Source of the DNA: Cymodocea nodosa | Taxonomy: Eukaryota; Streptophyta; Magnoliopsida; Alismatales; Cymodoceaceae | Assembly: GCA_036874045.1 (NCBI GenBank) | Contig: CM072336.1 | Location: 6,786,501-6,850,500 of the forward strand | Direction of reading: 5' to 3' | Length of the DNA: 64,000 bases | Shown: positions 5,353 to 60,835 of the stretch, piece after piece | How the letters are laid out: each line of letters opens with the position of its first letter | How positions within the stretch are numbered: position 1 is the stretch's first letter | Position numbers and translations under genes: made by a program | The notes under the pieces: generated by a model | Seen by the model: only the letters and a program-made list of their open reading frames with translations | What the model was told of the DNA's origin: nothing | The model's database searches: none

Positions 5353-5532
5353 ATGGCTTCCCTTAGACATGGGGGTCTCCTCTTCGTTCTTCTCATTTGT
5401 TTGAGTAGTCTCACTTCGGCAAGGGTGCTGACTGGCATTGGATTGGGCGGAGGTGTGGGTGTTGGCGTGGGCATTGGAATTGGAGGAGGCGGAAGTGGCT
5501 CCGTTGGAGGAGGTGGTAGTAGTGGAAGTGGT

Positions 5533-5563
<31 letters not shown>

Positions 5564-5652
5564 GCGGCGGTGGCGGTGGCGGTGGCGGTGGTGGTGGTGG
5601 AGGAGGAGGAGGTGGCGGGGGAGGTGGCGGGGGAGGAGGAGGAGGATTTTAA
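5353..5652 (+). CDS. Secreted glycine-rich protein, short type (copy A)
   Basis: The gene encodes 99 aa. Residues 1-23 form a classical signal peptide (MASLRHGG, a hydrophobic LLFVLLICL core, and a Thr-Ser-Ala cleavage site before RVLTG). Residues 28-58 are Gly with Val, Ile and Ser; from residue 60 there is an uninterrupted run of about 39 Gly ending in a single Phe. No Cys or Tyr is present in the mature part. By family precedent such proteins are structural components of the extracellular matrix or cell wall, but no function is shown here. The ATG is the one conserved in all copies and follows a good TATA box. It is the only plus-strand member, and it converges with copy B. Reading frames on the opposite strand are by-products of the GGN repeat. 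Confidence 0.85.
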
Positions 5653-6464
5653 AATTTCAATGATGTTGGCCCTACCTATGTATCCAAACACATACGTTTA
5701 TATCTCGATCTCGAATAAGAGAAGCTGAGAGCTTCAGTAACTTGTTCTTATGCATTTCTGCAAGCGTTATATTAACGAAGTTGTCCGCATGTTACAAAAC
5801 ATTGTTTCCCTGCACTTATATTGAAAAAAAAATATATTAAATTGTCAGATATGATTAGGTTTCAAATGTCGAAATATTAAAAAATAAGAAATAATAACAA
5901 GAAAAGACATTTTGTTGCAGAAAAACTACGGTTGACTGGTAGAGAGGAAAAAAGGAAAAAAATATTTTGATATCCCGAAATACCTTCGCAACCGCGTCGA
6001 CGCACGCCACGTTCCTTCGCTCCACTGCGTCCCTCACGGACTTTCTCTACGTTCTCCGCTCATTGTCCCGCGATCCGCTCGGGTGCCGGCTATAACAAGG
6101 GGAACGACTGAGCGACGTGGGACACCAATAGTTACTGCGACGAAGAGGAAGGAAAAGGGGCCTACGACGAGTGTTGGCAGTTCCGCAAAAAGCACTGCCC
6201 TAGGCCTACCACCGGCAGGTTCCGGGTGAGGTCTGCGACGTGGTCACGGTCGGATAGACTGGCGGACGGCCAGGTCGCACTGCCAAGTGTGCTGGAAGGC
6301 AGTGGTTTCACAGACGAATAGGCCGGTGGACGACTGTCGCGCAGCCGAGCAGGTCGGGTGGTTGCGCGAATAAGCTGGAGGAGTGATCCGATGGTCACGA
6401 GCGGAAACGGGCAGCCGGCGAAGATGATATGCTCGGACTGCCGCGCGTGTTTCAGGCCACGCGA
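5653..6464. other. 3' flank of copy A with GC-rich block
   Basis: The first 170 bases are the 3' UTR shared by short-type copies ('atgttggccctacctatgta', then 'gaataagagaagctgagag'). From about 5930 to 6300 the flank becomes GC-rich and is an inverted copy of 38870-38545, of 60250-59935, and in part of 31060-30890. Only copy A continues GC-rich to about 6464. The minus strand of 6162-6701 is open for 179 codons, but the matching frame is stopped in the other copies and no domain is recognised, so I do not call a gene. Confidence 0.5.
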
Positions 6465-6612
6465 AATCAGGAAGAAAGAAAACGGAAAGAAGAAGAACAA
6501 GAAAAAAGGGTACAAAAAAAAAGACAAAGAGAAAAGAAACGAAGAAAATAGAAAAATAAAAAAAAGACAAAAGAAGAAAGAAAAAGAAAAAAGAGAAGAA
6601 CAGAAAGGAATA
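6465..6612 (+). repeat. Purine-rich (GAA/AAG) low-complexity tract
   Basis: Nearly every base is A or G ('aagaaagaaaacggaaagaa' and similar) for about 150 bp, directly beside the GC-rich block. Frames through it encode only Lys/Glu runs or, on the other strand, Phe/Leu/Ser runs. Confidence 0.7.
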
Positions 6613-7139
6613 AATGTTAAATTTGAAATGTTGCAAATTTGAATGAACTTAACAAAATGAAATAATATAAGATCAAATAGCATTTTGATAAATGTGTGCA
6701 TGCATGTTTCATAAATACATGTATGTATAAAATAAAATGTATATATATTTGATTTATAAAATCAAATACATATATGGAAGAAGTCGAATGTATTTATATT
6801 TGATAAATATGTATATGTGATATGAAATCAATTTGATAAATGTATATATTATTAACAAAATACATATATGCATAAAGTAATCCAAAATCAAATATAACAT
6901 CAAGATGTTAACTTTAAGAGAAGATTTGTATAGGACGGAAATAAAACTTTTCGAGAAAGTTTTTTCTTTGTACATTCTTTCTAATCTTAGAGATATGAAA
7001 AGGTTAAAAAGTAATAACTCTTCTTCACCATATGTTGAACAAAAGTTTTCTTTTAATTTTCTTATGAATCATATGTTATTATCTTAAATCATAAAAATCA
7101 TATTTTAGCATTTTTTATCTTAAAAATAAATGTAATTTA
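6613..7139. repeat. AT-rich segment shared with the Harbinger remnant left of copy D
   Basis: Positions about 6810-7140 are an inverted copy of about 22540-22080, including the blocks around 'catatatgcataaagtaat' and 'ctctaagatta' (reverse complement). In the second place the block lies immediately upstream of a PIF/Harbinger-type transposase remnant, so this is probably a fragment of the same transposon. The part from 6640 to 6800 has several short palindromes around 'acatatatg'. No gene is supported. Confidence 0.45.
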
Positions 7140-8840: not shown

Positions 8841-9137
8841 TTTTAAAAATGCCTGATTTAATTTTTTGTCATTTCTCTTAATATTTCCACATTACAAACC
8901 AAAGAATCTCTCGTAATTTTCCGTAGATTTTCTCAAGATTCAAAAGTTAAAACGATAAAAAAAAGAGCACAGAAACGACGTTTTGTATCATGTGAACAAC
9001 TTCCTTAGTAAAACACTTGCAGAGGTAGTGACAAGTTTATATATGGAAGCTGTCATGAGCTTTTCTTATTCAAGATGGACATATTGGTAAGTGTATGGAT
9101 ACATAAGAAGCAAGGGAGATCGAACATCACAGAGGTT
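8841..9137 (-). other. 3' flank of GRP copy B
   Basis: This segment is conserved beside copies B, C and H (for example 'ccaaagaatctctcgtaatt' near 8898, 17805 and 53928). It probably holds the 3' UTR and polyadenylation region of the long-type genes. No further gene is visible. Confidence 0.5.
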
Positions 9138-9836
9138 TTAAGGGTGTCCTCCTCCACCACCTCCACCGCCGCCACCTCCTCCGCCACCACCACCACCTCC
9201 ACTTCCCGAGCCATACCCAGATCCGTGGCCAGATCCACGACCATACCCTCTTCCGCTTCCTGATCCACCACCGCCGCCACCTCCTCCTCCTCCGCCTCCA
9301 ACACCACCAGATCCATGACCCGAACCACTGCCATATCCATGGCCAGAGCCACTTCCACCTCCGGATGCATGTCCACCTCCTCCACCAGATCCGTGTCCAG
9401 AGCCACCTCCATGTCCACTCCCATGGCCTCCACCATAGCCTCCACCTCCACCGGATCCGTGCCCAGAGCCTCCTCCATGTCCACCCCCACGGCCTCCACC
9501 ATACCCATGCCCACCCCCGCCACCTCCACCGGATCCGTGTCCAGAGCCTCCTCCATGTCCACCCCCACGACCTCCAGCATAACCTCCACCGCCACCGGAT
9601 CCGTGTCCGGAGCCACCTCCACGTCCGTGCCCATTTCCTCCACCTCCACCTCCGCCTCCACCTCCACCTCCACCTCCACCTCCACCTCCTCCACCATGTC
9701 CTCCTCCGATTCCAACGCCCACGCCAAGACCCACACCTCCGCCCACTCCAATGCCAGTCAGCACCCTTGCCGAAGTGAGACTACTCAAACAAATGAGAAG
9801 AATAAAGAGGAGACCCCCAAGTCTAAGGGAAGCCAT
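9138..9836 (-). CDS. Secreted glycine-rich protein, long type (copy B)
   Basis: The gene encodes 232 aa. I chose the ATG at 9836, which matches all other copies; the in-frame codon two triplets upstream is GTG. Residues 1-23 are the signal peptide (MASLRLGG, LLFILLICL core, Thr-Ser-Ala cleavage site). The mature part starts RVLTGIG, followed by a Gly/Val stretch. It then carries imperfect repeats around GGGHGGGSGHGSGGGGG with interspersed GYGG, GRGG and GSGS, two further poly-Gly tracts and a terminal His-Pro. His, Tyr, Arg and Ser recur while Cys is absent after the signal peptide. Tyr in such proteins can be oxidatively cross-linked in walls, and the Gly-His-Gly spacing could bind metal ions; both are inferences. 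Copy H is its closest relative. Confidence 0.85.
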   Translation of the reverse strand: MASLRLGGLLFILLICLSSLTSARVLTGIGVGGGVGLGVGVGIGGGHGGGGGGGGGGGGGGGGGGGGNGHGRGGGSGHGSGGGGGYAGGRGGGHGGGSGHGSGGGGGGGHGYGGGRGGGHGGGSGHGSGGGGGYGGGHGSGHGGGSGHGSGGGGGHASGGGSGSGHGYGSGSGHGSGGVGGGGGGGGGGGGSGSGRGYGRGSGHGSGYGSGSGGGGGGGGGGGGGGGGGGHP

Positions 9837-10690
9837 TGCCACTGAATAATCTAGTGATCGATGGAATACTGCAAATTAATTTCCTGATGGTCAGGAGGGG
9901 AGGTCACTATTTATAGGCCTTAATTTTGCATGGCTCGACGTCGCTTTCCATTAATTCTTCCTTCGCGACATTCTTGCTTGCATTTTTTACTTCTCCGATA
10001 TACATGCCACTCTAGATAACTTATATTAATCAATACTAATTTATTTATATGACTTCTTTTTCCCTAGCTAGCATATATATGAACTAATTATTTGCCCACC
10101 ACGTGACTTTATAAATATATATAAACGCGTTACAATATAAAAATAAATTTGTGAGAGGTAGAGGACAAGACAGTGTCGGCCGAAAATGATGTGAGTAAGA
10201 TAGTCAACAATTTGATATTGTAATCTTATATATTAATCCCAAGGGGACCGAGAAAAACAACAATGCGACGCGTCTCATGATCAGGCCGATCGTCTGGCGG
10301 ATTGACATCTAAAGAAACGAACAAACATACCGACGTGCGTTCGTGATTGAATTTCCACTTCAATTTCAAGTCACACTTGCATTTTGTGCGTGCGCCGTAT
10401 ATGCACGTTAACGCGCAGAATCAGATCAAGTCGATCGACTGGCCCATGGATTTTTAACATCTAAACAAACAAGCAAAGAAGCCGACGCGCGTACCTGATT
10501 GAATTGCCTTTTAATTGATCGAACCAGATCCAATTCCAGTGACAGTTGCATTTCGTGGTTGTAAAGTTGGCGCGCAATATATACATATGTTACCGCCTGC
10601 ATGCATACAGATGTGTATTTATGCAAATTAGTTAAACGCAGGATCAAGTCAGGACGTACACACTTGACGGGATCCAACTAGGTCTTGTAG
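9837..10690 (-). promoter_or_regulatory. Promoter and 5' UTR of GRP copy B
   Basis: TATTTATA at 9908-9915 (TATAAATA on the gene strand) lies about 72 bp before the ATG. A perfect CACGTG G-box is at 10100-10105, about 265 bp upstream. ACGCGT motifs (10125 and 10269 regions) and the 'ctggcggattgacatct' block near 10292 are shared with the other copies. The homology with copy I (57896-58760) runs the whole length, including a second 'gacatctaaacaaacaag'-like block near 10456. Confidence 0.7.
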
Positions 10691-11819
10691 TTAGTATTGT
10701 GCCATCTCTATTCTTAACAACCTTGGAGTTTTATCTTAACAGATGCTCTATTGACATGCAATTTTGGTGCTTCTATTGACCTTTCTCTCTTACAACATGA
10801 TTTAAATTTTTGGAATGATTTTGGTAGCAATAAAATTTAAATTTCAAATTACACAATACCATTGAGATGTTCTCCAAGGGGACATTATGATATAGTGACT
10901 TGAACAAGGTTTTTGTTTAAAATTAGAATCTAATAGATTAATCAAGGTATTATATTAGATTTAAAATATAGTATTATTATGATTCACTACCATAGGTTTA
11001 AATCCAAGGAAATAGTATCTCCACTTACAACTGTAAGATTATTACAATCAAATCTTTTCCATAGCTCACATTCGTGGAGGTATTGTGTGCTAGGATTATA
11101 TAAAATAGATGATAATATGATTGAATTGATTGTTATTATCTAAATTTCGGGTAGAATATTTAAGTCTTTTATGATGTTGTAGATAATTATTTGTTGAAAG
11201 GCTCTTCGTTGGTAATTTGTTCCAATCTATTATGATGTTTGAAGGAAGTAACAACATTTTTTTTGCAATATGGAAATGTAAGGGAGATCATCATTGCCAT
11301 CCTTATGTTTAGTCTAATAGTGTGTTGTAGAAATAATGTTTCGAATATAGTCAATGAAAGATCACCATAGGTGGTGTTGGAGCACAAATTATATAGAAGT
11401 AAAGATGAATTTTCAACCAATGGCAGCATCCATTAGAAGCTTCACATTAATTAATGATGACATTTTTATGGTTGTCATTCAGGATGTCTTCCTAGTTTGT
11501 AAGTTGATCTACGAGGAAGAAAGAATGAAACTGATCAAAAGTAAAGGATTGCAAGAATTCTATCTCACATTCTTTCATTACTCAAATACACTATGTCCTT
11601 GTTGATTACTCTGAAAAAGTTTACACAAGCTTTCCTTTAAATTGATCTATATATGCAATTTATTATCATTACTATTAGTAAAAAATAATATAATAATAAT
11701 AATAAATAATATAATATAATTATTATAATAATATAATAAACATATACAATATGATCAAAACAATGGTTTATAAATAATTATAATTATTATACTAGTGTAT
11801 GATTCATTACGTTTAGGTA
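10691..11819. other. Unassigned AT-rich intergenic DNA
   Basis: I recognise nothing here. Two opposed frames of 80-83 codons at 11187-11605 have no recognisable domain and no second copy in the window. A TAA/TAT-rich low-complexity run lies at about 11683-11745. Confidence 0.4.
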
Positions 11820-11984
11820 TGATTCATAAAATTCACCTAAATGCAACAGATTTAGTCTATTGGGTTTGCTCAAATCCAATGAATTTAGTCTATAGGGTTT
11901 ACCCAAACCCAATGGATGTAGTCTGTCGAATTCACCCAAACATAACAGAGTTAGTTCGTAAGGTTTGATTAAACTTAACGGACA
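11820..11984 (+). repeat. Tandem repeat, five 33-bp units
   Basis: Units begin at 11820, 11853, 11886, 11919 and 11952, all exactly 33 bp. Consensus features are a TAGTCTAT start, a GGGTTT half, and a CCCAAA-CCCAATG half, so each unit contains a GGGTTT/AAACCC-like inverted pair. A single related unit sits near 12575 and near 55530. The period is a multiple of three and one frame is open for three units before a stop, but there is no sign of a gene. Confidence 0.75.
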
Positions 11985-13219
11985 TTGAGAATACTATTGA
12001 CAATATTTTAGACACAAAATAAAAAGTATATAAAATAAAATTAAAAATATTAGATATAAAAAATATAGAGAAATCTAAGAGATTACAAAATTCCAATAGT
12101 TTTAGATATAAAATAAAAATATCTAAAATTAAATTAAATACCTTAGATATAAAATATAAGTATTTAAGACCAAAAACTAAAGTATTTTAGATATAAAATG
12201 TCAATATCTAAAATACATATGAAAATTAGATTAAGATAAACATCTTAGATATGAGATATAAATATCTAAGGTTTAAAATTAAAAGTATTTAAGATATAAC
12301 ATATAAATATCTAACATATATATAAAATTAGATTAAACTAAATGTATTAGATATAAAATATAAATATTTAAAAATATATATCTAAGAAATAAAAATCTAA
12401 ATATTTTAGATACAAAATAAAAGTATCCAAAAAAAATCAAATATCTGAGACACACAACTATGAAAATGTTTCAGAAATTAAAACCAAAACATTTTACATA
12501 TAAAACATAAAGTATATAAAATAAAATACCTTAGATATAAAAATATCTAAGTTAGAAACTTTGTGATATTTAGGTGTAGTTTGTAAAGTTCACCTAAATT
12601 ATGTGTTATAAAATATATGAAGAAAATTGTGAATTGCAATACCCACAAAAGGACCCACAAACTATAGGAGGAGACCAAAAGTGAGGTATTAAGACACACC
12701 CATATTATTGAAGCACTCCCAATGCATGTCGAAATGATTGAAATATCCTTGCATATATCTAAAATATGAAAATATTCTTAGATATAAGCTTAAATATTTA
12801 AAATCTAAGTGCTAAATATGAGCTTAAAATTAGAACACTTTTAGAAATCAGTCTAAACAATCTAAAATAAAAATGTCCATAGATACAAATTTAAATTATC
12901 TAAAATATCAAATGTTCCTTGAAATAAGCATGAATTTTATTATATCATTGCACATTGTGACTTTGAATTGTACAACATTTTCATGTATTCTCTTTATAAG
13001 CAATGAAATTATATATTTTCATGTTGAATGTATTTGACATGATATAAATAAATCATCTTTCTTTAAAAAGTATAAGGTATCGAATTACTAGTTAATTATT
13101 GAAAGATTTCGTATATTACAAATACATATTTCAAATAATGAATAATATTTGTAACATGAGAAAAACCTACATAAACACATCTATAATTTTAAATTCAATT
13201 TAACATTTTAAAATATAGG
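11985..13219. repeat. AGATAT-type AT-rich repeat, partly duplicated at 55354-56170
   Basis: Positions 12000-12560 are diverged AGATAT/ATATCT units. From about 12405 to the hAT insertion at 13220 the text is a direct copy of 55354-56170, including the more complex block 'ggacccacaaactatagg' near 12650. No gene is seen. Confidence 0.6.
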
Positions 13220-13535
13220 ATCTTATCTAGAGGTGTCAATTGGGTCGGGCCATCGAGAGCCAGGCTGGGCTACATTACATTAGAAAATTGGCTTCCGAGT
13301 TGGGCTAGCCCACAAGCTGATTCGGGCCGAGCTAGGCTAGCTCGTGGGCAGATTCGGGTCGGACCTAGGTTGGCCTATAGGCCAATTCGAGCTAGGCTCC
13401 GTAAGTCAATAAGTACGTGTATGTTAAATAAACGTTAAAATAACTTCCATTTTTTGTAATGAACGTTGAAATCAATGGAAAATAAAAAATAAAAAATGGA
13501 ATATGATGCTTCTCTTATATATATTAAGTATTTGT

Positions 13536-14680: not shown

Positions 14681-14759
14681 AAAAGCGAGCTGGGCTGGGA
14701 TGTCCTAACAAAATTTCGAGCCAAACTAGGCTGCTCTAAAAAAATTTCGAGTAAAGACA

Positions 14760-16800
14760 AGTGTTTAGAATGAAAAAGTACACAATATTAACGATTAAAT
14801 GATGGTTAATTGCATAATATTGAGCTTATCATATGAGAATTAAGTCATTATGTTATAATTACACTGTTATATACTTTAATGAAAGAATCTACATAATTTC
14901 AGGAAATTATCGTGAATTAAGTACATTTCTAAATTGTCGTTAAGTTACAAACTTTTTAATTCCTAAGTTTCCAAATTTTCTGTTATTTCATAGAGTTACA
15001 TTTAATGTACCGAACAGTTACGTTTTAAACGTTAAAAGAATGTACTGATGTATAGTAACAACTCATTGAGTTAGTGTTCTTTTTGTTGAAAGATCGCATA
15101 CCAACTCATTAAGTTACAGGTTTAAATGTGTAAAAAGATCACGTGAGAACTTGTTGAGTTAGCGAGTAAAAATTGTAAGTTGTATATCTGAACTCATTAA
15201 GTTAGATTTATGCACATGTTGAATTTAAATGCTTTAGTATGTCACATGAGATGCACATGTATAACTCGTTAAGTTAGTATAACTATATGCATTGAGTTGC
15301 TTGAATATACACTAAGGTAATGTGTTGTGTTAGTATTATAAGCTTATAAGTTATTTCTTTATTGCACGTATTTTATAGTTAAATCAACGAAGTAAGTCCG
15401 TTGAGTTACACTAACTCCACACACCATTTATTTTCTAAAATGCCACTATAGCAGTTGCAGAAATAGGTAATTCGAAGGAAAACCATGATTACATGTATCA
15501 CGCAGGAATTCACTCGTGAAATGAAGAGGAAATCACCATCGTTGATATGAATGAAGGAAATCCAACCGATCATTTAAGTAGAATCAGTTATTACTGAAAG
15601 AAATATAAAAGAATAGGAGAAAGATAACGAAGTATGTGTGTGTAGGTGGAGAACCGTGCTAACCACAGGAAGCATCGGAAATTCTTTGAAGTTTTACACC
15701 ACCACCAAAATCACCAACCATTTAAGGTCTGTGAGGATACTTTCTAGATGTCGGGTCGATTCCGAGCCAAACACGGTGCCTGACAATCACTATGAGGAGT
15801 GATCGCGTCACAAGAAGGGAAGTCATTTTTACCAAACACCGACTTATATCTCAAGAGATCGTAAAACTTCTAGCCTTAGTTTCAAGTTGATGCTAGTATG
15901 CTAAAGAGGAGATCATCTTACAATTCTTGATTCACGATTCTATAGGGAGAGGAGGCAAGATTGTAAGTGATTAAGTTTTCAGTAGTGTAATTGCATCGCA
16001 TGTAATGATAGAAGTTTTTACTATTAATAGAGATTTTTACATTTCACCTTTCGCTCATCTTCAAGAATATATTAAAACAAAAATACCAAAAATAACAAAT
16101 TATCTGTGTTTACATTTAGTATTAAAGTGTTATATTGTTTGCTTTGTATCGTGATTAATGTTATCATTGTGAGTATTGTGAATGTTTTATGTCTGTTTAA
16201 TTTAGAAAATAGAAAATAGTTTTACAGTTTATTGAAATTGATTCGTCCTAGATATTTAAAGATTTTAATGGTTACTGTTTGAAATATTTGAATGTTAGTG
16301 TTGCTTAATGACAAATCTAATATTAACTAACATTAAAGAGCTTAATTGATGTTATTTACATTCTATGGAATCGCCCAATGGTTGACTAAATTCCTCTGTA
16401 AATAGCAGTATTTAATTGGAAAGATAGACTCGTGGAGTTAACGTAAGTCCATGAGGTTAATCTGTTAAGTTAACTGTAACTCCACAAACTAAGTCTGTTG
16501 AGTTAACTATAACTCAATAGAGTGTTTAACTACACATATATACTTCAATATAAAAATCGAAATAGTACACAATTCTTACTCAATTTTTATAGGATCGATC
16601 TGTACTTTCACACAAATACAATAGACACTGTGTACTTGTAGTTAAAATAAAAATTGAACTTAATATCTAATTTATGTGAAATGTTGTTTGTTACTTCTAA
16701 AAGAATTTATTAATATAGACATAAAAAATCAAATAAGTTCTCTGATATCCGCTTAACAAACAGAAGTTAACAATCAATACAATAGGTTATCCCAAAAAAA
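14760..16800 (+). mobile_element. Nested repeat element inside the hAT, second copy at 56383-57757
   Basis: Positions about 15390-16770 are an inverted copy of about 57750-56400. Shared blocks include 'gccaaacacggtgcctgaca' (15768) and 'agttttcagtagtgtaatt' (15973). The interval 15040-15420 carries repeated palindromic text of the kind AACTCATTGAGTTA. No coding remnant is recognised, so the class is unknown. The start is placed where hAT-type subterminal sequence stops ('ttcgagtaaagac'), and this boundary is uncertain. Confidence 0.5.
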
Positions 16801-18045: not shown

Positions 18046-18699
18046 TTAAGGGTGTCCTCCTCCACCACCTCCACCGCCGCCACCTCCTCCGCCACCACCA
18101 CCTCCACTTCCCGAGCCATACCCAGATCCGTGGCCAGATCCACGACCATACCCTCTTCCGCTTCCTGATCCACCACCGCCGCCACCTCCTCCTCCTCCGC
18201 CTCCAACACCACCAGATCCATGACCCGAACCACTGCCATATCCAAGGCCAGAGCCACTTCCACCTCCGGATGCATGTCCACCTCCTCCACCAGATCCGTA
18301 TCCAGAGCCACCTCCATGTCCACTCCCATGGCCTCCACCATAGCCTCCACCTCCACCGGATCCGTGTCCAGAGCCTCCTCCATGTCCACCCCCACGGCCT
18401 CCACCATACCCATGCCCACCCCCGCCACCTCCACCGGATCCGTGTCCAGAGCCTCCTCCATGTCCACCCCCACGACCTCCACCATAACCTCCACCGCCAC
18501 CGGATCCGTGTCCAGAGCCACCTCCACGTCCGCCTCCACCTCCACCTCCACCTCCACCATGTCCACCTCCGATTCCAACGCCCACGCCAACACCCACACC
18601 TCCGCCCACTCCAATGCCAGTCAGCACCCGTGCCGAAGTGAGACTACTCAAACAAATGAGAAGAATAAAGAGGAGACCCCCAAGCCTAAGGGAAGCCAT
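18046..18699 (-). CDS. Secreted glycine-rich protein, long type (copy C)
   Basis: The gene encodes 217 aa. The signal peptide is identical in sense to copy B (MASLRLGG to Thr-Ser-Ala at residue 23). The mature part has the same order as B: Gly/Val stretch, GHGGGSGHGS repeats with GYGG and GRGG, poly-Gly, a GSGSGRGYGRGSGHGS segment, poly-Gly, and a terminal His-Pro. It is 15 residues shorter than B, mainly because the first poly-Gly tract is shorter. One GSGLGYG replaces GSGHGYG of copy B. A TATA box lies 80 bp upstream. The role as an extracellular structural protein is inferred from the family type. Confidence 0.85.
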   Translation of the reverse strand: MASLRLGGLLFILLICLSSLTSARVLTGIGVGGGVGVGVGVGIGGGHGGGGGGGGGGRGGGSGHGSGGGGGYGGGRGGGHGGGSGHGSGGGGGGGHGYGGGRGGGHGGGSGHGSGGGGGYGGGHGSGHGGGSGYGSGGGGGHASGGGSGSGLGYGSGSGHGSGGVGGGGGGGGGGGGSGSGRGYGRGSGHGSGYGSGSGGGGGGGGGGGGGGGGGHP

Positions 18700-23572: not shown

Positions 23573-23667
23573 TCATTGAAATTTTAAAATCCTCCTCCCC
23601 CGCCACCTCCTCCTCCTCCTCCACCACCACCGCCGCCACCGACACCGCCGCCGCCGCCACCGCCACC
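23573..23667 (-). repeat. 95-bp tandem duplication of the 3' end of GRP copy D
   Basis: The text 'tcattgaaattttaaaa' occurs at 23573 and again at 23668, exactly 95 bp apart, and GGN-type repeat sequence fills both intervals. The gene stops at the more upstream of the two terminators (23679-23681), so the duplicated piece is now 3' UTR carrying a second poly-Gly-type stretch and a second stop. Confidence 0.75.
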
Positions 23668-23678
23668 TCATTGAAATT

Positions 23679-23966
23679 TTAAAACCCTCCTCCCCCGCCA
23701 CCACCACCACCTCCTCCTCCCCCGCCACCTCCTCCGCCACCTCCTCCTCCTCCACCACCACCGCCGCCACCGCCACCGCCGCCGCCGCCGCCACCACTTC
23801 CACTACTACCACCTCCTCCAACGGAGCCACTTCCGCCTCCTCCAATTTCAACGCCAACACCCACACCTCCGCCCAGTCCAACGCCAGTCAGCACCCTTGC
23901 GGAAGTGAGACTACTCAGACAAATGAGAAGAACGAAGAGGAGTCCCCCATGTCTAAGGGAAGCCAT
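23679..23966 (-). CDS. Secreted glycine-rich protein, short type (copy D)
   Basis: The gene encodes 95 aa: signal peptide residues 1-23, then RVLTGVGLGGGVGVGVEIGG, a GSGSVGGGGSSGS spacer, about 37 Gly and a terminal Phe. The Glu at residue 40 and the two-residue deletion beside it (against GVGIGIGG in A and F) are shared only with copy J, marking D and J as sisters over this part. The stop is followed by a duplicated 3' end. The start is the conserved ATG, with a TATA box 80 bp upstream. An extracellular structural role is inferred from the family type. Confidence 0.83.
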   Translation of the reverse strand: MASLRHGGLLFVLLICLSSLTSARVLTGVGLGGGVGVGVEIGGGGSGSVGGGGSSGSGGGGGGGGGGGGGGGGGGGGGGGGGGGGGGGGGGGGGF

Positions 23967-28279: not shown

Positions 28280-28830
28280 ATACTTTCCTTTGCTCTAAAA
28301 ATTTCAAAATCTTGGTTAAAAACTTGTTATCTCGTAAAATCAAAATTATTTAGTCTAATAATGACATCGAGTTTCTTAACCAGGCCTTCTTCGACTTCAC
28401 TATAGCTCATGAGATTCTCCATCATTTTAGATGTCCTTACACCTCTTCGTAGAATGGGGTTGTTGAACGTAAGCACTATCGCATTGTCGACGTTGGATGT
28501 TGTCGTCTTCTTTCAGCCTCCCTTCTTCTCATTATTGGCTCCATGCTTTTCAAATCACTTGTTTTTTAATTAATTATACAAGTACCTCGATCCTTTACAA
28601 CCTTTCTTTATATGAAAAGTTGTTTAATCGACTTCCAGATTTACGTCTTCTTAAGGTGTATGGCTATTTATGTTTTCCATTACCTCATAATCTCGCCCCT
28701 CGATCTCTCCCTTGTGTTTTCCTTGGGCATGCCTCCAGTCACAAAGGTTACCTATGTCTCGATTTGTCTACCATTCGCATTTGTATCTCTCCAAGCGGAA
28801 GATAGGTTCGATGGTGTGTGCTCCTCATTT
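28280..28830 (+). pseudogene. Copia integrase remnant
   Basis: The frame reads LLSRKIKIIQSNNDIEFL, then CPYTSS-stop-NGVVERKH, then (after a frame shift) YLCFPLPHNLAPRSLPCVFLG and SSHKGYLCLDLST. The first two blocks are the copia integrase core around the last catalytic Glu; the later ones are the conserved C-terminal 'CVFLGY...KGY' segment. The Gln codon of the PQNG block has become TAG. Confidence 0.75.
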
Positions 28831-30605: not shown

Positions 30606-30836
30606 TGTGAATATTAAGTCGCCCTAATGTACTTTCCATATGTACATGTTTCCATTTTCCTATGTTTGGTGACTAATACTGTACTTCCCATTCATGGGAA
30701 ACTTCCATTATACATTGATATCTATAAATACTATGGGTGCCCGGATAGATAACACTAAGCCGGAAACATTCACCACGTAACTTGGTGTACATTTCTATCT
30801 GTTCCTCACCACACCTTTGTACAGCAGTTCGTTGCA
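30606..30836 (+). repeat. Probable copia 3' LTR (start only defined)
   Basis: It begins with TG directly after a polypurine tract and contains 'ctataaatactatggg' near 30721, a likely LTR TATA box. No matching 5' LTR exists in the window and the 3' end is not marked, so the length is unknown. Confidence 0.5.
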
Positions 30837-31475
30837 ATAGCTTCAGGCAAAGGCACGTCGCAGTAGTCGTCACAGCACTGCAACCAGGAGGAATCTTCGT
30901 CGCAGTAACTATCGGTGTCCCTCGTCGCTCTGTCGTTCCCCTTGTTATAGCTGGCACCCGAGTAGATCGCAGGACGATGAGCGGAGAACGTGGAGCATGT
31001 CCATGAGCGACGTAGTGGAGCGGAGGAACGTGGCTTGCGTGGACACGGCCGCGAATATTCGCACCTCTTCGGAAATTTCGGTCGACCGAAAGTTTTTTCG
31101 GTATATCGAAGCATTTTTTTTCTTTTTTCCTCTCTATCAGTTTATTTCGGTAGAGTTTTTCCTCTCTATCAATCAACCGTAGTTTTTCTGCAACAAATTA
31201 TGTCTTTTTTTTGTTATTACTTCTTATGTTTTAATATTTCGACATTTTAAACCTAACCATCTCTGATAATTTACTCTAGATTTTTTTCAATATATAAAAG
31301 GTAAAACGAAAATATAAGTGCAAGGAAACAATGTTTTGTAACATGCGAACAACTTCGTTAATATAACGCTTTCAGAAATGCATAACATGTTATTGAAGTT
31401 CTCAGTTTCTCTTATTCGAGATCGAGATATACGTATGAGTTTGGATACATAAGTAGGGCCAATATCATTGAAATT
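30837..31475 (-). other. 3' flank of GRP copy E with partial GC-rich block
   Basis: From about 30890 ('tcttcgtcgcagtaactat') the text matches the GC-rich block beside copies A, F and J; the outer part of the block is missing and copia DNA abuts it. From about 31180 the flank is the normal short-type 3' flank. Opposed frames of 60-167 codons cross here but agree with no domain and are stopped in the other copies. Confidence 0.5.
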
Positions 31476-31760: not shown

Positions 31761-32520
31761 TGCCTCGGAATTATCTACTGATGGAAGACTATTCCTTAAT
31801 TACCTGACGGCGAGGAGAAGAGGTGTGGAGGTATCTATTTATAGGTGTTTGCATGGTTCGGCGTCGCCATCCATTCTTCATCGACAACACTCTTGCTTGC
31901 CTTATTTGACTTATTTTCTTCTTATTCTAAATAATTTTAGTTAGTACTAATTTATCACCCTTCGAACATGTAATATGTTAATTTAGATCACTAATATTCC
32001 TTAAATTAAGTTTGCGGCACATTCGACTATGAACATGCATGTCTAATTAATACTAATTATTTTTAGTTTTATATTGGGATATGTGTCTCTATATACACAT
32101 ATGTGTGTTGTAATGAAAAATTAAATATGTGACATAATGTTCGATATATACTCAGGTGATGAGTTGTAAGATCACGTACATATTCAGAGGTAGACAAGAA
32201 TAAAATGTCGGCAGAAACTGATGTAAGAGAGTCAGCAATTTGATCCGGAGAGGAATCTTATCTTAAATATAATATAATCTCAAGGGACAAAAACACCACC
32301 GCGACGCGTCTCGTCATGTCGACCGACTGGCCGTCTGACATCTGAATAAATAAACAAACGAATATGCTGTCGCGTATGATTCAAATGCCAGTTCAAATTC
32401 AAGTCACACTTGCATTTTGTGATCGAGACGTACGCCATACACGTTACCACATGCATACAGATGGATATTTATGCATATGACGCGCAGTATCAAATCGGGA
32501 CACACTTGACCAGACTCCTA
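31761..32520 (-). promoter_or_regulatory. Promoter and 5' UTR of GRP copy E
   Basis: TATTTATA is at 31836-31843, about 76 bp upstream of the ATG. The G-box region conserved in other copies (CCCACCACGT...) is not found. ACGCGT at about 32304 and the 'gacatctgaataaataaac' block near 32337 keep the outer promoter recognisable, as does 'tcaagtcacacttgcatttt' near 32399. Confidence 0.6.
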
Positions 32521-39169: not shown

Positions 39170-39247
39170 TTAAAATCCTCCTCCTCCTCCCCCGCCACCA
39201 CCACCTCCTCCTCCCCCGCCACCACCACCTCCTCCACCACCACCGCC

Positions 39248-39279
<32 letters not shown>

Positions 39280-39457
39280 CACTTCCACTACTACCACCTC
39301 CTCCAACAGAGCCACTTCCGCCTCCTCCAATTCCAATGCCCACGCCAACACCCACACCTCCGCCCAATCCAATGCCAGTCAGCACCCTTGCGGAAGTGAG
39401 ACTACTCAGACAAATGAGAAGAACGAAGAGGAGACCCCCATGTCTAAGGGAAGCCAT
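39170..39457 (-). CDS. Secreted glycine-rich protein, short type (copy F)
   Basis: The gene encodes 95 aa. Residues 1-59 are the same as copy A (signal peptide, RVLTGIGLGGG, GVGIGIGG, SSGS), followed by about 35 Gly and a terminal Phe. Upstream and downstream DNA are inverted copies of the copy A locus, so A and F are very recent duplicates differing mainly in poly-Gly length. The TATA box and conserved ATG support the start. An extracellular structural role is inferred from the family type. Confidence 0.85.
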
Positions 39458-41650: not shown

Positions 41651-41651
41651 G

Positions 41652-42580: not shown

Positions 42581-42599
42581 TTGGGGACGTACCTTCGTA

Positions 42600-47379: not shown

Positions 47380-47976
47380 TTAAGGGTGTCCTCCTCCACC
47401 ACCGCCACCTCCGCCTCCACCACCACCGCCGCCGCCACCTCCTCCTCCTCCGCCTCCTCCACCACCACCAGATCCGTGTCCAGAGCCACCTCCATGTCCA
47501 CTACCATGGCCTCCACCTCCACCGGACCCAAGCCCACCCCCGCCACCTCCATGTCCACTACCATGGCCTCCACCTCCACCGGACCCATGCCCACCCCCGC
47601 CACCTCCACCGGATCCGTGTCCAGAGCCTCCTCCATGTCCACCCCCACGGCCTCCACCGGACCCGTGCCCACCTTCGCCACCTCCACCGGATCCGTGTCC
47701 AGAGCCACCTCCATGTCCACCACCACGGCCTCCACCATGACCACCACTGCCACCGGATTCGTGTCCAGAGCCACCTCCACGTCCGCCCCCATGGCCTCCA
47801 CCTCCACCTCCGCCTCCACCTCCACCTCCACCACCATGTCCTCCTCCGATTCCAACGCCCCCGCCAACACCCACACCTCCGCCCACTCCAATGCCAGCCA
47901 GCACCCTTGCCGAAGTGAGACTACTCAAACAAATGAGAAGAATAAAGAGGAGACCCCCAAGCCTAAGGGAAGCCAT
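47380..47976 (-). CDS. Secreted glycine-rich protein, long type (copy G)
   Basis: The gene encodes 198 aa, the shortest long-type member. The signal peptide is intact (Thr-Ser-Ala at 21-23), followed by RVLAGIG, where other copies have RVLTG. GHGGGSGHGSGGGG and GHGSGHGGG repeats follow, with Glu in GHESGGSGG and GGGEGGHGS, then a long poly-Gly and a terminal His-Pro. The Tyr-containing GYGG and GRGYGRGSGHGS segments of B, C and H are missing, so the mature protein has no Tyr and could not be Tyr-cross-linked. An extracellular role is inferred. Confidence 0.85.
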   Translation of the reverse strand: MASLRLGGLLFILLICLSSLTSARVLAGIGVGGGVGVGGGVGIGGGHGGGGGGGGGGGGGGHGGGRGGGSGHESGGSGGHGGGRGGGHGGGSGHGSGGGGEGGHGSGGGRGGGHGGGSGHGSGGGGGGGHGSGGGGGHGSGHGGGGGGLGSGGGGGHGSGHGGGSGHGSGGGGGGGGGGGGGGGGGGGGGGGGGGGHP

Positions 47977-54164: not shown

Positions 54165-54857
54165 TTAAGGGTGTCCTCCTCCACCACCTCCACCGCCGCC
54201 ACCTCCTCCGCCACCACCACCTCCTCCACTTCCCGAGCCATACCCAGATCCGTGGCCAGATCCACGACCATACCCTCTTCCGCTTCCTGATCCACCACCG
54301 CCGCCACCTCCTCCTCCTCCGCCTCCACCACCACCAGATCCATGACCCGAACCACTGCCATATCCATGGCCAGAGCCACTTCCACCTCCGGATGCATGTC
54401 CACCTCCTCCACCAGATCCGTGTCCAGAGCCACCTCCATGTCCACTCCCATGGCCTCCACCATAGCCTCCACCTCCACCGGATCCGTGCCCAGAGCCTCC
54501 TCCATGTCCACCCCCACGGCCTCCACCGGACCCATGCCCACCCCCGCCACCTCCGCCGGATCCGTGTCCAGTGCCTCCTCCATGTCCACCCCCACGACCT
54601 CCACCATAACCTCCACCGCCACCGGATCCGTGTCCAGAGCCACCTCCACGTCCTCCCCCATGGCCTCCACCTCCACCTCCACCTCCGCCTCCACCTCCAC
54701 CTCCACCTCCTCCACCATGTCCTCCTCCGATTCCAACGCCCACGCCAAGACCCACACCTCCGCCCACTCCAATGCCAGTCAGCACCCTTGCCGATGTGAG
54801 ACTACTCAAACAAATGAGAAGAATAAAGAGGAGACCCCCAAGTCTAAGGGAAGCCAT
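54165..54857 (-). CDS. Secreted glycine-rich protein, long type (copy H)
   Basis: The gene encodes 230 aa from the conserved ATG at 54857; as in B, an in-frame GTG lies two codons upstream and is not used as start here. The layout is that of copy B: signal peptide, RVLTGIGVGGG, GVGLGVGVGIGGGHGG, poly-Gly, GHGGGSGHGS repeats with GYGG, the GSGSGRGYGRGSGHGS segment, poly-Gly, and His-Pro. A GHGGGTGHGS unit has Thr where others have Ser. Flanks on both sides are duplicates of the B locus. Function is inferred from the family type. Confidence 0.85.
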   Translation of the reverse strand: MASLRLGGLLFILLICLSSLTSARVLTGIGVGGGVGLGVGVGIGGGHGGGGGGGGGGGGGGGGGGHGGGRGGGSGHGSGGGGGYGGGRGGGHGGGTGHGSGGGGGGGHGSGGGRGGGHGGGSGHGSGGGGGYGGGHGSGHGGGSGHGSGGGGGHASGGGSGSGHGYGSGSGHGSGGGGGGGGGGGGGGGSGSGRGYGRGSGHGSGYGSGSGGGGGGGGGGGGGGGGGGHP

Positions 54858-55353
54858 TGCCACTGAATAATCTACTGATCGATGGAATACTGAAACTTAA
54901 TTTTCTGATGGTCAGGAGAGGAGGTGTGAAGGTCTCTATTTATAGGCCTTAAATTTGCATGGCTCGACGTCGCTTTCCATTAATTCTTCCTTCGCGACAT
55001 TCTTGCTTGCATTTTTTTCTTCTCCCATATACATGCCACTCTTGATAACTTATATTAATCAATACTAATTTATTTATATGACTTCTTTTTCCCTAGCTAG
55101 CATATATATGAACTAATTATTTGCCCACCACGTGGCTTTATAAATATATATAAACGCGTTACAATATAAAAATAAATTTGTGAGAGGTAGAGGACAAGAC
55201 AGTGTCGGCCGAAAATGATGTGAGTAAGATAGTCAACAATGTGATATTGTAATCTTATATATTAATCCCAAGGGGACCGAGAAAAACAACAATGCGACGC
55301 GTCTCATGATCAGGCCGATCGTCTGGCGGATTGACATCTAAAGAAACGAACAA
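54858..55353 (-). promoter_or_regulatory. Promoter of GRP copy H, shortened
   Basis: TATTTATA is at 54937-54944 and a CACGTG G-box at 55129-55134. The homology with other promoters stops at about 55353, just after the 'ctggcggattgacatct' block, where an AGATAT-type repeat matching 12405 begins. The distal 300 bp present in B and I are therefore missing. Confidence 0.65.
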
Positions 55354-56383
55354 ACAAATATTTTAGATATAAAATAAAAGTATCCAAAATAAAATCAAAT
55401 ATCTTAGACTATGAAAATGTTTAAGAAATTAAAACCAAAACATTTTACATATAAAACGTAAATTATATAAAATAAAATACCTTGGATATAAAAATATCTA
55501 AGTTAGAAACTTTGTGATATTTAGGTGTAGTTTGTAAAGTTCACCTAAATTACGTGTTATAAAATATATGAAGAAAATTGTGAATTGCAATACCTACAAA
55601 AGGACCCACAAACTATAGGAGGAGACCAAAAGTGAGGTATTAAGACACACCCATATTATTGAAGCACTCCCAATGCATGTCGAAATGATTGAAATATCCT
55701 TGCATATATCTAAAATATGAAAATATTCTTAGATATAAGCTTAAATATTTAAAATCTAAGTGCTCCTAAATATGAGCTTAAAATTAGAACACTTTTAGAA
55801 ATCAGTCTAAACAATCTAAAATAAAAATGCCCATAGATACAAATTGAAATTATCTAAAATATCAAATGTTCCTTGAAATAGCATGAATTTTATTATATCA
55901 TTGCACATTGTGACTTTGAAATATACAACATTTTCATGTATTCTCTTTATAAGCAATGAAATTATATATTTTCATGTTGTATGTATTTGACATGATATAA
56001 ATAAATCATATTTCTTTAAAAAGTATAAGGTGTAGAATTACTAGTTAATTCTTGAAAGGTTTCGTATATTACAAATACATATTTCAAATAATGAATAATA
56101 TTTGTAACATGAGAAAAACCTACATAAACACATCTACAATTTTAAATTCAATTTAACATTTTAAAATATAGGATCTTATCTCTTGGAATTAAAACAAGGA
56201 AGGTTATTATACCACACAATGGGTGTGCTTGATGACCCCAGCTCGTAGACAAAAGAGCTAGGAGCTAGGTTATCTCCATCAAAGAAGAGAAATTTTTTTT
56301 CTTGGTTTCAGTATAATTCATATTTTCAATGTACATTGAAGAAGAAAAAGAGAGTTCTTAGAGAGTTGGGATTTGATGACTGT
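55354..56383. repeat. Copy of 12405-17114 without the hAT element
   Basis: The text follows 12405-13219, and near 56177 passes directly to text corresponding to 16914-17114. The junction 'ggatcttatctcttggaatt' (from about 56169) is thus an empty site for the hAT element. No gene is present. Confidence 0.65.
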
Positions 56384-57757
56384 TTGGTTGTTTTTGTTTA
56401 CTTAAATATATATTTATATTTTCTTTTAGAAGTAAACAAATAATTTTCACAAATAAGATATTAAATTTGATTCATAATTAACTGCAAGTGTACAATGTCT
56501 ATTGCATAAACGTACAAGTATATGTCGATCCTAAAGAGAATGAGTAAAAATTCTAAACTATTTAAATTTTTACAGCTAGAGGTTTTTGTATTCTGAATTA
56601 CTCACTGCTAAGTCAATGGACTTAGTTCGTTGAATTATAGTTATCTCAACGGATTATCCTCATGGAGTTAAGTTAACTTAACGAGCCTCACTAGTAACTT
56701 CAAATTAAAATTATTATCCATAGAGGAATATGACCATACATTGGGTAGTTCTATAGAATGTGAATAACATCTATTAAGTGTTTAATGTTAGTTTATACTT
56801 ATCATTAATTAGCATTAACATTCAGATATTTCAAATAGTAACCATATTAATAAGGATTTTAGAATTGTATACAAACTGGTTTCAGTAAACAGTAATATGA
56901 TTTTCTATTTTCTAGAATGAATTAATCATAAAACATTCAACAATACTAACAATACTAATAATACAAAACAAATGATACAACTTAGGTTTGATAAATATAA
57001 AAACAGATAATGAGTTTTTGTTAGTTTTTATTATGATATGTTCTTGAAGATGAAATAAAAGTGAAAGGTAAAATTCTCTATTGACAGTAAGAAACTCCGT
57101 CATTATATGCGATGTAGTTACACTACTGAAAACTTAATCACTTACTATCATGTGTCCCTCTCCTTATAGAATCGTGAACCGAGACTTTTAAGTTGATCTC
57201 TTCTTTAGTATTGCAGTATCAACCAAAAACTAAGGCTAGAAACTTTATTATCTCCTAAGAGATGATTTGGTGCTTGGTGAAAATGTTATTCTTTCTGGCG
57301 ATACGATTACTCCTCATAATGGTTGTCAATCACCGTGTTTGGCTTAGAATTGACCTGATATCCGAAAAGTATCTTCATAGATCTCTGATGGTTGGTGATT
57401 GATGGTGGTGGTGAAGCTTTAGGGAATGACTTACGCTTGCTGCAGTTAGCGCAATTCTCTACACTCTCTTCTTTCTTTTCTTTTCTTTTTTTCCTTTTAT
57501 ACTTCTTTCAGTAATAACTACTTCTACCTAAATGACTGGTTGAATCTCCCTCATTCGCATCAACGATGGTGATTTCTTCTTCATTCCACAATTTAGATCA
57601 TAGCGTGGTTTGTGTAATTGTGGTTTCCTTTGAATTTCCTTTTCTTGCAATTGCTCATAGTTGAATATTAGAAAATAACTGGTCTGTGAAGTTAGTGTAA
57701 CTCAACAGACTTAATTCGTTGACTTAACTGTAATTCAATGGATTTAATTCAATGACC
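56384..57757 (-). mobile_element. Repeat element, inverted copy of 15390-16770
   Basis: Its left border breaks the 17114-like flank ('gatttgatgact') and its right border breaks GRP copy I. Shared blocks include 'caccgtgtttggct' near 57332 and 'gaaaacttaatcac' near 57128. It contains AACTCAACGG/GTTAAGTTAAC-type palindromic text. No coding remnant is recognised; a 63-codon frame at 56912-57103 is unsupported. Class unknown. Confidence 0.5.
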
Positions 57758-57895
57758 TACTCCTCCGATTCCAACGCCCACGCCAAGACCTACACCTCCG
57801 CCCACTCCAATGCCAGTCAGCACCCTTGCCGATGTGAGACTACTCAAACAAATGAGAAGAATAAAGAGGAGACCCCCAAGTCTAAGGGAAGCCAT
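57749..57895 (-). pseudogene. Truncated long-type glycine-rich protein (copy I)
   Basis: The ATG at 57895 begins an intact signal peptide and RVLTGIGVGGGVGLGVG, identical in style to copies B and H. At about 57757 the gene is cut by the neighbouring repeat element, and the frame ends after 48 codons with a TGA at 57749. The whole repeat domain is lost. The promoter is complete, so a short secreted peptide of about 25 residues could in principle still be made. I regard it as a pseudogene. Confidence 0.75.
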
Positions 57896-58760
57896 TGCCA
57901 CTGAATAATCTACTGATCGATGGAATACTGCAAATTAATTTCCTGATGGTCAGGAGAGGAGGTGTGGAGGTCACTATTTATAGGCCTTAATTTTGCATGG
58001 CTCGACGTCGCTTTCCATTAATTCTTCCTTCGCGACATTCTTGCTTGCATTTTTTACTTCTCCGATATACATGCCACTCTAGATAACTTATATTAATCAA
58101 TACTAATTTATTTATTTGACTTCTTTTTCCCTAGCTAGCATATATAGGAACTAATTATTTGCCCACCACGTGACTTTATAAATATATATAAACGCGTTAC
58201 AATATAAAAATAAATTTGTGAGAGGTAGAGGACAAGACAGTGTCGGCCGAAAATGATGTGAGTAAGATAGTCAACAATTTGATATTGTAATCTTATATAT
58301 TAATCCCAAGGGGACCGAGAAAAACAACAATGCGACGCGTCTCATGATCAGGCCGATCGTCTGGCGGATTGACATCTAAAGAAACGAACAAACATACCGA
58401 CGTGCGTTCGTGATTGAATTTGCACTTCAATTTCAAGTCACACTTGCATTTTGTGCGCGCGCCGTATATGCACGTTAAAGCGCAGAATCAGATCAAGTCG
58501 ATCGACTGGCCCATGGATTTTTAACATCTGAACAAACAAGCAAAGAAGCCGACGCGCGTACCTGATTGAATTGCCTTTTAATTGATCGAACCAGATCCAA
58601 TTCCAGTGACAGTTGCATTTCGTGGTTGTAAAGTTGGCGCGCAATATATAAATATGTTACCGCCTGCATGCATACAGCTGTGTATTTATGCAAATTAGTT
58701 AAACGCAGGATCAAGTCAGGACGTACACACTTGACGGGATACAACTAGGTCTTGTAGTTA
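57896..58760 (-). promoter_or_regulatory. Complete promoter upstream of truncated copy I
   Basis: TATTTATA is at 57975-57982 and a CACGTG G-box at 58167-58172. The segment is nearly identical to the promoter of copy B (9837-10690) over its whole length. It therefore may still drive transcription into the adjoining repeat element. Confidence 0.6.
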
Positions 58761-59654
58761 ATATTGTGCCATCTCTATTCTTTAACGACTATCAATTGAT
58801 TCTGGACATTCAATAGACATTTCTATCTTGCATTTATTTATTAAAATCTTGCACGTTAGGACAATGGTTTTAATTCTTCATGTGTGTGTGCATGAAAGTA
58901 AAATTGAGATTGAAATTGTGCATGCCTCGTTTGGCTTAAGGGGAATTTTGTGTGAGAATTCATGCCTGGTTGGATAAATATAGTGACTACGTTGTAGATC
59001 TAACTACGAGGGCTGAACCATGGTATTATTCATATAATTGAAATATTTAATCGATTCTTGAAGTGCGTTTTTTTTTTTTGCTCCAGGCACTCCTAACATT
59101 GTTTGGAGGAATTGAAGTATGAAAGCGAAACAAACGCATGGTGTGTTGCACAGTTTGAGGAACTGCACACCGAGTGTAGCCTTAGGATGAAGAAATGTCT
59201 TGCTTGATCACCCATGACGTGTAAGAGCGACTTTTTAGGAGAAATGACTAAAATGACCCTTTTATTAATTTTTCTCCACGAGTAGACTAATTGACTCTTG
59301 GAGCTATAATAGTAATCGTAGCCGTAAGTTGCAGTTATTTTGTGGCATGTCATTCACAGTTACAGGCGTCATTATCGTACACGTTTGATGAAATGACTGT
59401 TTACACCTCCCCATTACGTTGCATTCCTTTATCCAGTCTTTCTAGACAAAAAGTTAAATACCTTTGAAGTAATAATGTCTATTAGTAATTATGAATGTTT
59501 CCGTAAATGTGTAATTACGATAAAACTTGTATTTTGTGAATTTTTATTATTGGAAGCATTATATCTTGTAGTTGTAGTATTTTATTGTTAAATCTCTCAC
59601 AGGTACTTCAACCTAGCGAATTTTTCACACATATCTTTTATATAGGCAAACTAG
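58761..59654. other. Unassigned intergenic DNA
   Basis: Nothing is recognised. Positions 59345-59470 resemble 50700-50840. An 86-codon minus-strand frame at 59093-59353 shows no motif. Confidence 0.35.
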
Positions 59655-60559
59655 CTTCTGAATGAAATTATAAATGTATTTTTTGTATGACATGTGAATA
59701 TGGTTGCGAATTTATATAACCAATTTTCGTTATTAAATTTTGTTTCTTTGTAGGGATTTTCCATAGGGACCATATATTTTTTGTCCATAATTTTACGACT
59801 TAGACGAGGAAAAGGTGAGAGATAGCCGAAGGAATTATTTCTAAACTTGTTCAGTAAAGACGAGAGAATTTCTTTCACCTATTCTTCGACTTAATTTGAT
59901 CAGGACAAGGGAGATAATTTTAATAATTTTGGGACCTTAGCACACTTGGCAGTGCGACCTGGCCGTCCGCCAGTCTATCCGACCGTGAGCCCGTCGAAGA
60001 CGTCACCCGGAACCTACCGGTGGTAGGCCTAGGGCAGTGTTTTTTGCAGAACTGCCAACACCCGTCGTAGGCCCCTTTTCCTTCCTCTTCGTCGCAGTAA
60101 CTATTGGTGTCCCTCGTCGCTCTGTCGTTCCCCTTGTTATACCCGGCACCGGAGCGGATCGCGGGACGATGAGCGGAGAACGTGGAGAATGTCCGTGAGG
60201 GACGCGGTGGTGCGAAGGAACGTGGCGTGCTTGGACGCGGTCGCGAAGGTATTTCGGGATATCAAAATATTATTTTCCTCTCTACCAGTCAACCGTAGTT
60301 TTTCCGCTACAAAATATGTCTTTTCTTGTTATTATTTCTTAGACATTTGAAACCTAAGCATATCTGACAATTTAGTATAGATTTTTTTCAATATAAGTGC
60401 AAGGAAACAATGTTTTGTAACATGCGGACAACTTCGTTAATATAACGCTTGCAGAAATGCATAAGAGCATGTTATTGAAGCTCTCAGCTTCTCTTATTCG
60501 AGATCGAGATATACACGTATGTGTTTGGATACATAAGTAGGGCCAACGTCATTGAAATT
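59655..60559 (-). other. 3' flank of GRP copy J with GC-rich block
   Basis: It is nearly identical to 38267-39169 left of copy F, including the GC-rich block at about 59935-60260. The resemblance to F continues into the 3' end of the gene. Confidence 0.55.
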
Positions 60560-60835
60560 TTAAAATCCTCCTCCTCCTCCCCCGCCACCACCACCTCCTC
60601 CTCCCCCGCCACCACCACCTCCTCCACCACCACCGCCGCCACCGCCACCGCCGCCGCCGCCACCACTTCCACTACTACCACCTCCTCCAACGGAGCCACT
60701 TCCGCCTCCTCCAATTTCAACGCCAACACCCACACCTCCGCCCAATCCAACGCCAGTCAGCACCCTTGCGGAAGTGAGACTACTCAGACAAATGAGAAGA
60801 ACGAAGAGGAGTCCCCCATGTCTAAGGGAAGCCAT
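60560..60835 (-). CDS. Secreted glycine-rich protein, short type (copy J)
   Basis: The gene encodes 91 aa, the shortest intact member. The N-terminal half matches copy D, including the diagnostic GVGVEIGGGG at residues 35-44 and RVLTGVG. The poly-Gly run is about 33 residues, ending in Phe. The 3' end of the coding region and the 3' flank instead match copy F base for base, so the gene looks like a D/F recombinant with the exchange inside the GGN repeat. The signal peptide and TATA box are intact. An extracellular role is inferred. Confidence 0.84.
   Translation of the reverse strand: MASLRHGGLLFVLLICLSSLTSARVLTGVGLGGGVGVGVEIGGGGSGSVGGGGSSGSGGGGGGGGGGGGGGGGGGGGGGGGGGGGGGGGGF

Follow-up and report, generated by a model that had tools for sequence, protein, structure and literature searches.

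A gene cluster for predicted secreted glycine-rich proteins in Cymodocea nodosa, probably expanded through segmental duplication and rearranged by recombination or gene conversion

Introduction

Plant glycine-rich proteins (GRPs) of class I combine a signal peptide with a (GGX)n region, and those of class V mix GGX with GXGX repeats, according to PMC5852109. Tandem clusters of genes for hybrid proline/glycine-rich proteins (HyP/GRPs) occur in rice and other cereals; one example in sorghum has 11 members within 101 kb, according to PMC4174136. This report concerns a 64,000-nucleotide stretch of the genome of Cymodocea nodosa (assembly GCA_036874045.1, contig CM072336.1, positions 6,786,501 to 6,850,500, forward strand), here called the window, which harbors ten copies, designated A to J, of one glycine-rich protein gene family with two structural types. 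It is a gene cluster of a known, ordinary kind, with a readable record of recombination. The best account, with a probability of about 0.75, is a local cluster of genes for secreted GRPs that has grown by segmental duplication and has been reshuffled by recombination or gene conversion. The observation made in a preliminary description of the same DNA, drawn from the letters alone, is partly confirmed and holds with corrections.

The two types compare differently with the GRP classes described in PMC5852109. As in class I, a signal-peptide-like start is followed by a very glycine-rich part, with 69-76% Gly and no Cys in the mature portion of all nine intact copies. The (GGX)n form is present in all nine, if loosely in the short type, which unlike class I is nearly pure poly-Gly (runs of 32-39), with X mostly Gly. 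The long type, compared with class V by description only, resembles it in mixing GGX with GXGX (for example GHGSGYGSGS) behind a signal-peptide-like start. By reading, this mixture is present in 4/4 intact long copies and not in the short type; unlike class V, again by description only, the long type has 7-9% His in its mature part and a fixed His-Pro end. The Cys-rich C-terminal domain of class II is not seen in any of the nine intact copies, whose mature parts hold 0 Cys. Neither the oleosin domain, the sub-group signature of class III, nor the RNA recognition motif (RRM) or cold-shock domain of class IV was found at E<=1 among Pfam matches for A, E, B, C and G. The HyP/GRP clusters, as described in PMC4174136, are likewise tandemly duplicated, with a variable Pro/Gly-rich region there and a Gly-rich one here. 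They differ in their conserved eight-cysteine region, which has no counterpart in the Cys-free mature parts of the nine intact copies.

By analogy with GRPs of classes I and V, as PMC5852109 describes them, the products are likely secreted structural or matrix proteins, and would go to the apoplast or cell wall. It may be speculated that the His-rich long type binds metal ions or responds to pH.

Results and Discussion

The ten copies and their two types

All ten copies of the signal-peptide start were recovered by tblastn with two queries (best E-value per copy 2e-26 to 6e-23). Their positions in the window are as follows, with lengths in amino acids (aa). Below, negative positions lie upstream of the coding start and positive ones follow the stop codon.

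5353..5652, + strand: gene A, short type; 99 aa with a 39-Gly run and a GGF end; the sole + strand copy
9138..9836, - strand: gene B, long Gly-His/Gly-Ser type; 232 aa, GHP end
18046..18699, - strand: gene C, long type; 217 aa, GHP end
23679..23966, - strand: gene D, short type; 95 aa
31476..31760, - strand: gene E, short type; 94 aa, MGALRHGG start; promoter diverged from all other copies
39170..39457, - strand: gene F, short type; 95 aa; 98.9% like A in the 5' part and 99.0% like J in the 3' flank
47380..47976, - strand: gene G, long type; 198 aa, without Tyr; 3' flank differs from the other long genes
54165..54857, - strand: gene H, long type; 230 aa; shares a 97% block with B; unlike the other copies beyond about -500
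57761..57895, - strand: copy I, truncated; matches a B/H-like long gene through the promoter and 45 codons, and is unrelated after that
60560..60835, - strand: gene J, short type; 91 aa; resembles D upstream of about codon 58 and F downstream of it

Nine copies are open reading frames (ORFs) of 91-232 aa, each a single ORF that makes the assumption of an intron unnecessary; the tenth, I, is a 5' fragment. The count of nine intact genes and one truncated copy given in the preliminary description therefore stands. In I, likeness to the family ends after codon 45 and a stop follows three codons on, as VGH; I is likely a pseudogene. The copies differ by about 1% to 30% depending on the segment, with larger differences at replaced flanks, so assembly has not simply multiplied a single sequence. 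No further relic copies were found at E<=1e-3 outside the ten genes and 900 bp on either side of them, by blastn with five promoter and 3' queries. The two types had been called interspersed rather than grouped. Along the window their order is one short, two long, three short, three long and one short, which makes five runs; as the probability of five or fewer is 0.36 (runs test), the types are neither grouped nor interspersed beyond chance.

The start of the protein in the ten copies is MASLR[H/L]GGLLF[V/I]LLICLSSLTSARVL[T/A]G, with MGALRHGG as the variant in E. In 10/10 copies the start is basic, with a hydrophobic LLF[VI]LLICLSSL core, and TSA precedes the mature part; judged by eye, this resembles a signal peptide. 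In A this part of the common 5' module lies as follows.

5353..5421, + strand: predicted signal-peptide coding stretch of A, codons 1-23; cleavage after TSA by eye

The mature part, taken from Arg24 on, also by eye, measures 68-76 aa in the five short copies; Gly makes up 74-76% of it and forms an unbroken run of 32-39, and His, Tyr, Lys and Cys are absent. In the four intact long copies it measures 175-209 aa, with Gly at 69-73%, His at 7-9%, Ser at 8-11% and 0-7 Tyr residues. The sequence thus bears out one glycine-rich family with two structural types and a signal-peptide-like start. The ends assigned to the types were correct where they can be scored, with Phe in 5/5 short copies and His-Pro in 4/4 intact long ones; I, which had been counted with the latter, ends as VGH and is not scorable as His-Pro. 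The two types also align around the stop codon and through the 3' untranslated region (3'UTR), and are therefore homologous at the 3' end too. The stretch common to both takes in the 5'UTR, about 0.5 kb of promoter, the coding start, the 3' end and the 3'UTR, which is wider than first described.

As would be expected from GGN repeats, which are poor in stop codons, long overlapping ORFs lie in other frames of B, for example at 9053-9697 (-) and 9315-9845 (+), with similar ones in C, G and H.

It is very improbable that the open frames are low-complexity repeats without a coding role, in which GGN repeats happen to give long ORFs in several frames. The long genes do hold further long ORFs, both in their other frames and on the opposite strand, as such an account expects. 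However, the frame of the signal peptide is open to an aligned TAA stop in 9/10 copies, the alignment of the short genes has only gaps of three bases or multiples thereof ahead of the stop, and the TATA box has the same aligned position in 10/10.

Gene J is a chimera

J is a clear chimera, D-like before the poly-Gly tract and F-like after it, and the switch lies inside the Gly-coding tract. Between -560 and nucleotide 174 of the coding sequence, 17 events separate J from D and 48 separate it from F; beyond nucleotide 174 the counts are 26 and 4, respectively, and J and F do not differ at all from nucleotide 175 to 359. Upstream of -560 there are a further 4 (J-D) and 33 (J-F) events, in sequence that is poorly homologous between J and F. 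Over the 5' part, J is 98.0% like D and 80.2% like F, the latter figure including non-homologous sequence beyond about -606. In the 3' flank, F and J are 99.0% alike and A and J 90.8%; from +246 to +640, 392/395 positions are identical between F and J, and 352/375, plus 40 gap positions, between A and J.

Two further traces are of the same kind. F equals A in codons 1-41 save for two bases, in codons 17 and 22, both of which are common to D and J, and D holds an extra copy of its own end.

23584..23678, - strand: tandem extra of the D poly-Gly end, stop codon included; 95-bp period, directly behind the D stop

The chimera in J, the two bases in F and the end duplication in D fit unequal exchange or conversion in the GGN repeats.

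A whole-copy tree as the full account of the array is ruled out by the J chimera and by trees of separate segments that disagree. Recent duplication alone, with young copies that require neither exchange nor selection, is accordingly a very unlikely explanation. Several pairs are indeed 95-98% alike through their flanks (B-H, B-I, A-F and D-J), but a simple whole-copy tree cannot give 3'UTRs that are 55-78% alike between the types beside promoters of A, D, F and J that are 88-96% like those of the long genes, and J joins two histories.

A maximum chi-square scan of the 252 triples of the nine genes gave 156 with a chi value above 15, many of these signals being differences between the short and long types or effects of poly-Gly alignment, and those of E triples being affected by an E promoter that was partly cut or misaligned in this comparison. 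The J/D/F triple is not among the 40 triples listed of these 156. The scan is therefore no more than a pointer to a switch near the E start codon relative to the rest.

Duplication blocks extend past the genes

Comparison of the window with itself gave blocks that extend past the genes, of 95.5% over 2053 bp for A-F (inverted), 94.6% over 1692 bp for D-J, 97.1% over 1668 bp for B-H, 97.8% over 1023 bp for B-I and 87.3% over 2298 bp for C-G. Near A, 4246-6293 matches F in inverted orientation. It is preceded by a composite at 1541-3707, of which 1541-2962 is 93.2% like 47230-45817 behind G and 2951-3707 is 91.2% like 53668-52922 behind H, both inverted, the latter piece lying between the G-like and F-like ones. 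From 47230 downward, the 3' flank of G thus matches 1541-2962 at 93%, and it is unlike that of the other long genes. The order of the pieces near A is as expected if the A unit is an inverted copy of the stretch from F to the G flank.

H is unrelated to the remaining copies upstream of about -500. The stretches 55336-56181 and 12380-13228 are 95.6% alike, and H seems to lack about 2 kb found upstream of B (10327-12380); this would account for the different H sequence beyond -500. Close to the break in I lies another repeated stretch, which may be a mobile element and may have had a part in the truncation.

56393..57733, no strand assigned: stretch ending 27 bp from the I break, 74% like 15373-16733, inverted

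The upstream tract is alike in nine copies of both types

The likeness of the copies continues upstream of the coding start.

4853..5352, + strand: putative promoter of A, some 0.5 kb long and similar in the two types; contains the TATA box CTATAAATAG (-88), GAGACGCGTCGC (-438), RCCGAC (-353) and CATGCA (-104)

The TATA box CTATAAATAG occupies one aligned place in 10/10 copies (-88 in A, -84 in E), as does RCCGAC, and GAGACGCGTCGC is invariant in all ten; CATGCA is present in 9/10 and missing from F. We take GAGACGCGTCGC, RCCGAC and CATGCA to resemble the CGCG-box, DRE and RY elements, respectively. Across the ten copies, 236/490 columns of the promoter alignment are invariant. The description of the promoter as nearly invariant is true of nine copies at most: E is only 51-84% like the others, D and J are without about 50-60 bp near -160, and H departs beyond about -500.

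Measured in 70-bp windows in A coordinates, A, D, F and J are 88.4-96.1% like the long genes from -500 to -11. Further upstream, the likeness is 73.5% with B and I and 80.8% with C and G at -570 to -501, and 60.5% and 85.5%, respectively, at -640 to -571. In the 3'UTR, it is 54.8-77.5%, namely 67.6-77.5% with B and H and lowest with G, whose flank has been replaced. In a tree of the segment from -360 to -150, D and J join C and G (ultrafast bootstrap 81), whereas the coding start of D and J joins F (93).

These patterns suggest that exchange, and not selection alone, made the 5' tract alike. The cluster would have grown by segmental duplication, one unit being inverted, and unequal exchange or gene conversion would then reshuffle the copies, with the repetitive GGN tracts inside the genes as probable exchange points. 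The 5' halves (promoter, leader and signal peptide) and the 3' halves (Gly-rich end and 3'UTR) would thus have partly separate histories. Some 0.5 kb of 5' tract and the coding start would have been made alike in nine of the ten copies, across both types, and the mature part and 3'UTR would retain older differences between the types. A more specific version is put forward tentatively. In it, gene conversion with ends near -500 and in the coding start or poly-Gly tract keeps a cassette of about 0.6 kb, made up of promoter and signal peptide, evolving in concert in two old protein types; new secreted Gly-rich bodies would repeatedly be placed behind this common cassette for expression and export, and E would be the one copy left out.

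Selection as an alternative or an addition

Selection acting on the promoter and signal peptide is a serious competitor to exchange, or may have acted beside it. Purifying selection in place of exchange, for common expression and secretion, with drift of the repeat region and 3'UTR, is improbable, though clearly less so than an account by duplication alone. It is favored by the invariance of the TATA box and GAGACGCGTCGC, by RCCGAC at one aligned place in 10/10 copies, and by a ratio of nonsynonymous (dN) to synonymous (dS) divergence of about 0.2 between the types in signal-peptide codons 1-24. On the other hand, E is an intact gene with a far less similar promoter (51-84%), and the drop in between-type likeness beyond about -500 spans whole 70-bp windows and not motifs alone. 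The mid-promoter of D and J groups with C and G, contrary to their coding start, and J is chimeric.

Several observations weigh against exchange as the explanation of the common 5' tract, or narrow its reach. Between the types (25 pairs), mean dS is 0.231 and dN 0.047 over codons 1-24, a sign of constraint, and 0.140 and 0.080 over codons 1-41, figures that are weak with about 35 synonymous sites and a history common to the copies. Even counting E, the promoters share ten invariant blocks of at least 6 bp, the TATA box and start-codon context among them. The invariant columns are mildly clustered; a longest run of 12 was reached in 152/5000 column shuffles and a second-longest of 10 in 45/5000. 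The grouping of D and J with C and G in mid-promoter is only moderately supported. In the 3'UTR, three sites put A with D and F with J, all of them within +46, the stretch over which D is well homologous; from +1 to +190, the four copies A, D, F and J show 95-98% likeness to one another. Only the exchange between F and J is therefore strong, and a second one, of A with D, is only hinted at. Finally, E may have received a foreign promoter, and, as judged from the copies of the window alone, exchange may have run in either direction.

Among A, D, F and J, 176 sites at the 5' side group A with F and D with J, and at the 3' side 11 sites group A with D and F with J against 1 for the former grouping. 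The full four-gamete claim that these counts suggest was cut back. Many of the 5' sites lie beyond -606, in non-homologous sequence, the 3' homology of D ends at about +245, and the copies have the high likeness from +1 to +190 noted above.

It had been proposed that the signal peptide and promoter are held constant while the secreted part is diverse; for the constancy, the support is partial. For the signal peptide, some constraint is suggested by dN below dS, present but moderate on these weak numbers. Recent duplication together with exchange can account for the likeness of the promoters, E apart; some of the invariant blocks may nonetheless be functional, the evidence being modest.

Gene E, the exception

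The region upstream of E is homologous to that of the other copies and diverged from it.

31761..32376, - strand: putative promoter of E, with insertions, 51-84% like the others from -500 to -11; upper end approximate

In 70-bp windows from -500 to -11, E is 50.7-84.3% like every other group. On either side of this tract it is close to A and F, with 88.9% at -640 to -571, 93.6-95.0% in the coding start and 88.8-95.2% in the 3'UTR; further upstream, -1339 to -1673 of E is 95.9% like A. Either A, D, F and J acquired the promoter tract of the long type, or E acquired a foreign one. The former seems preferable, because the distance of the E promoter from those of the long genes resembles that between short and long 3'UTRs.

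Just behind E, at 30806-31114 (-), is a 102-aa ORF containing Cys, for which Pfam gave nothing at E<=1. As it overlaps flank common to A, this ORF is unlikely to be a gene.

If exchange does homogenise the 5' module while the 3' bodies diverge, neighbouring promoters could remain similar even if the individual copies were not under selection, and promoter near-identity in arrays of secreted repeat proteins should not be taken as proof of constraint. Like promoters would be expected to mean shared expression; the preliminary description likewise took the products, by inference, to be co-expressed wall proteins. The locus would then be a natural test, in which E with its diverged promoter, J as a chimera and D with its end duplication predict which copies share expression.

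Other searches and sequences in the window

Family models gave no match in Pfam for A, E, B, C and G (5/9 intact copies) or in NCBIfam for A, B and G (3/9). There was no PDB match at E<=1, and among viral contigs the 52 N-terminal residues of C gave 600 pattern matches, none confirmed; neither collection is a place where plant relatives are expected. In the full text of the literature, the peptide SARVLTGIG was not found, and glycine-rich protein combined with unequal crossing, with polyglycine, or with structural diversity and histidine gave no match, which is not claimed as absence from print. The window has no tRNA, and no Rfam family at gathering scores. Remnants of Copia-type retrotransposons, which like the style of the genes fit a plant nuclear genome without proving it, are present at 63332-63745 and 28497-28805, with matches to a reverse transcriptase (PF07727, E 1.5e-33) and a retroviral-polyprotein SH3-like domain (PF25597, E 3.2e-12).

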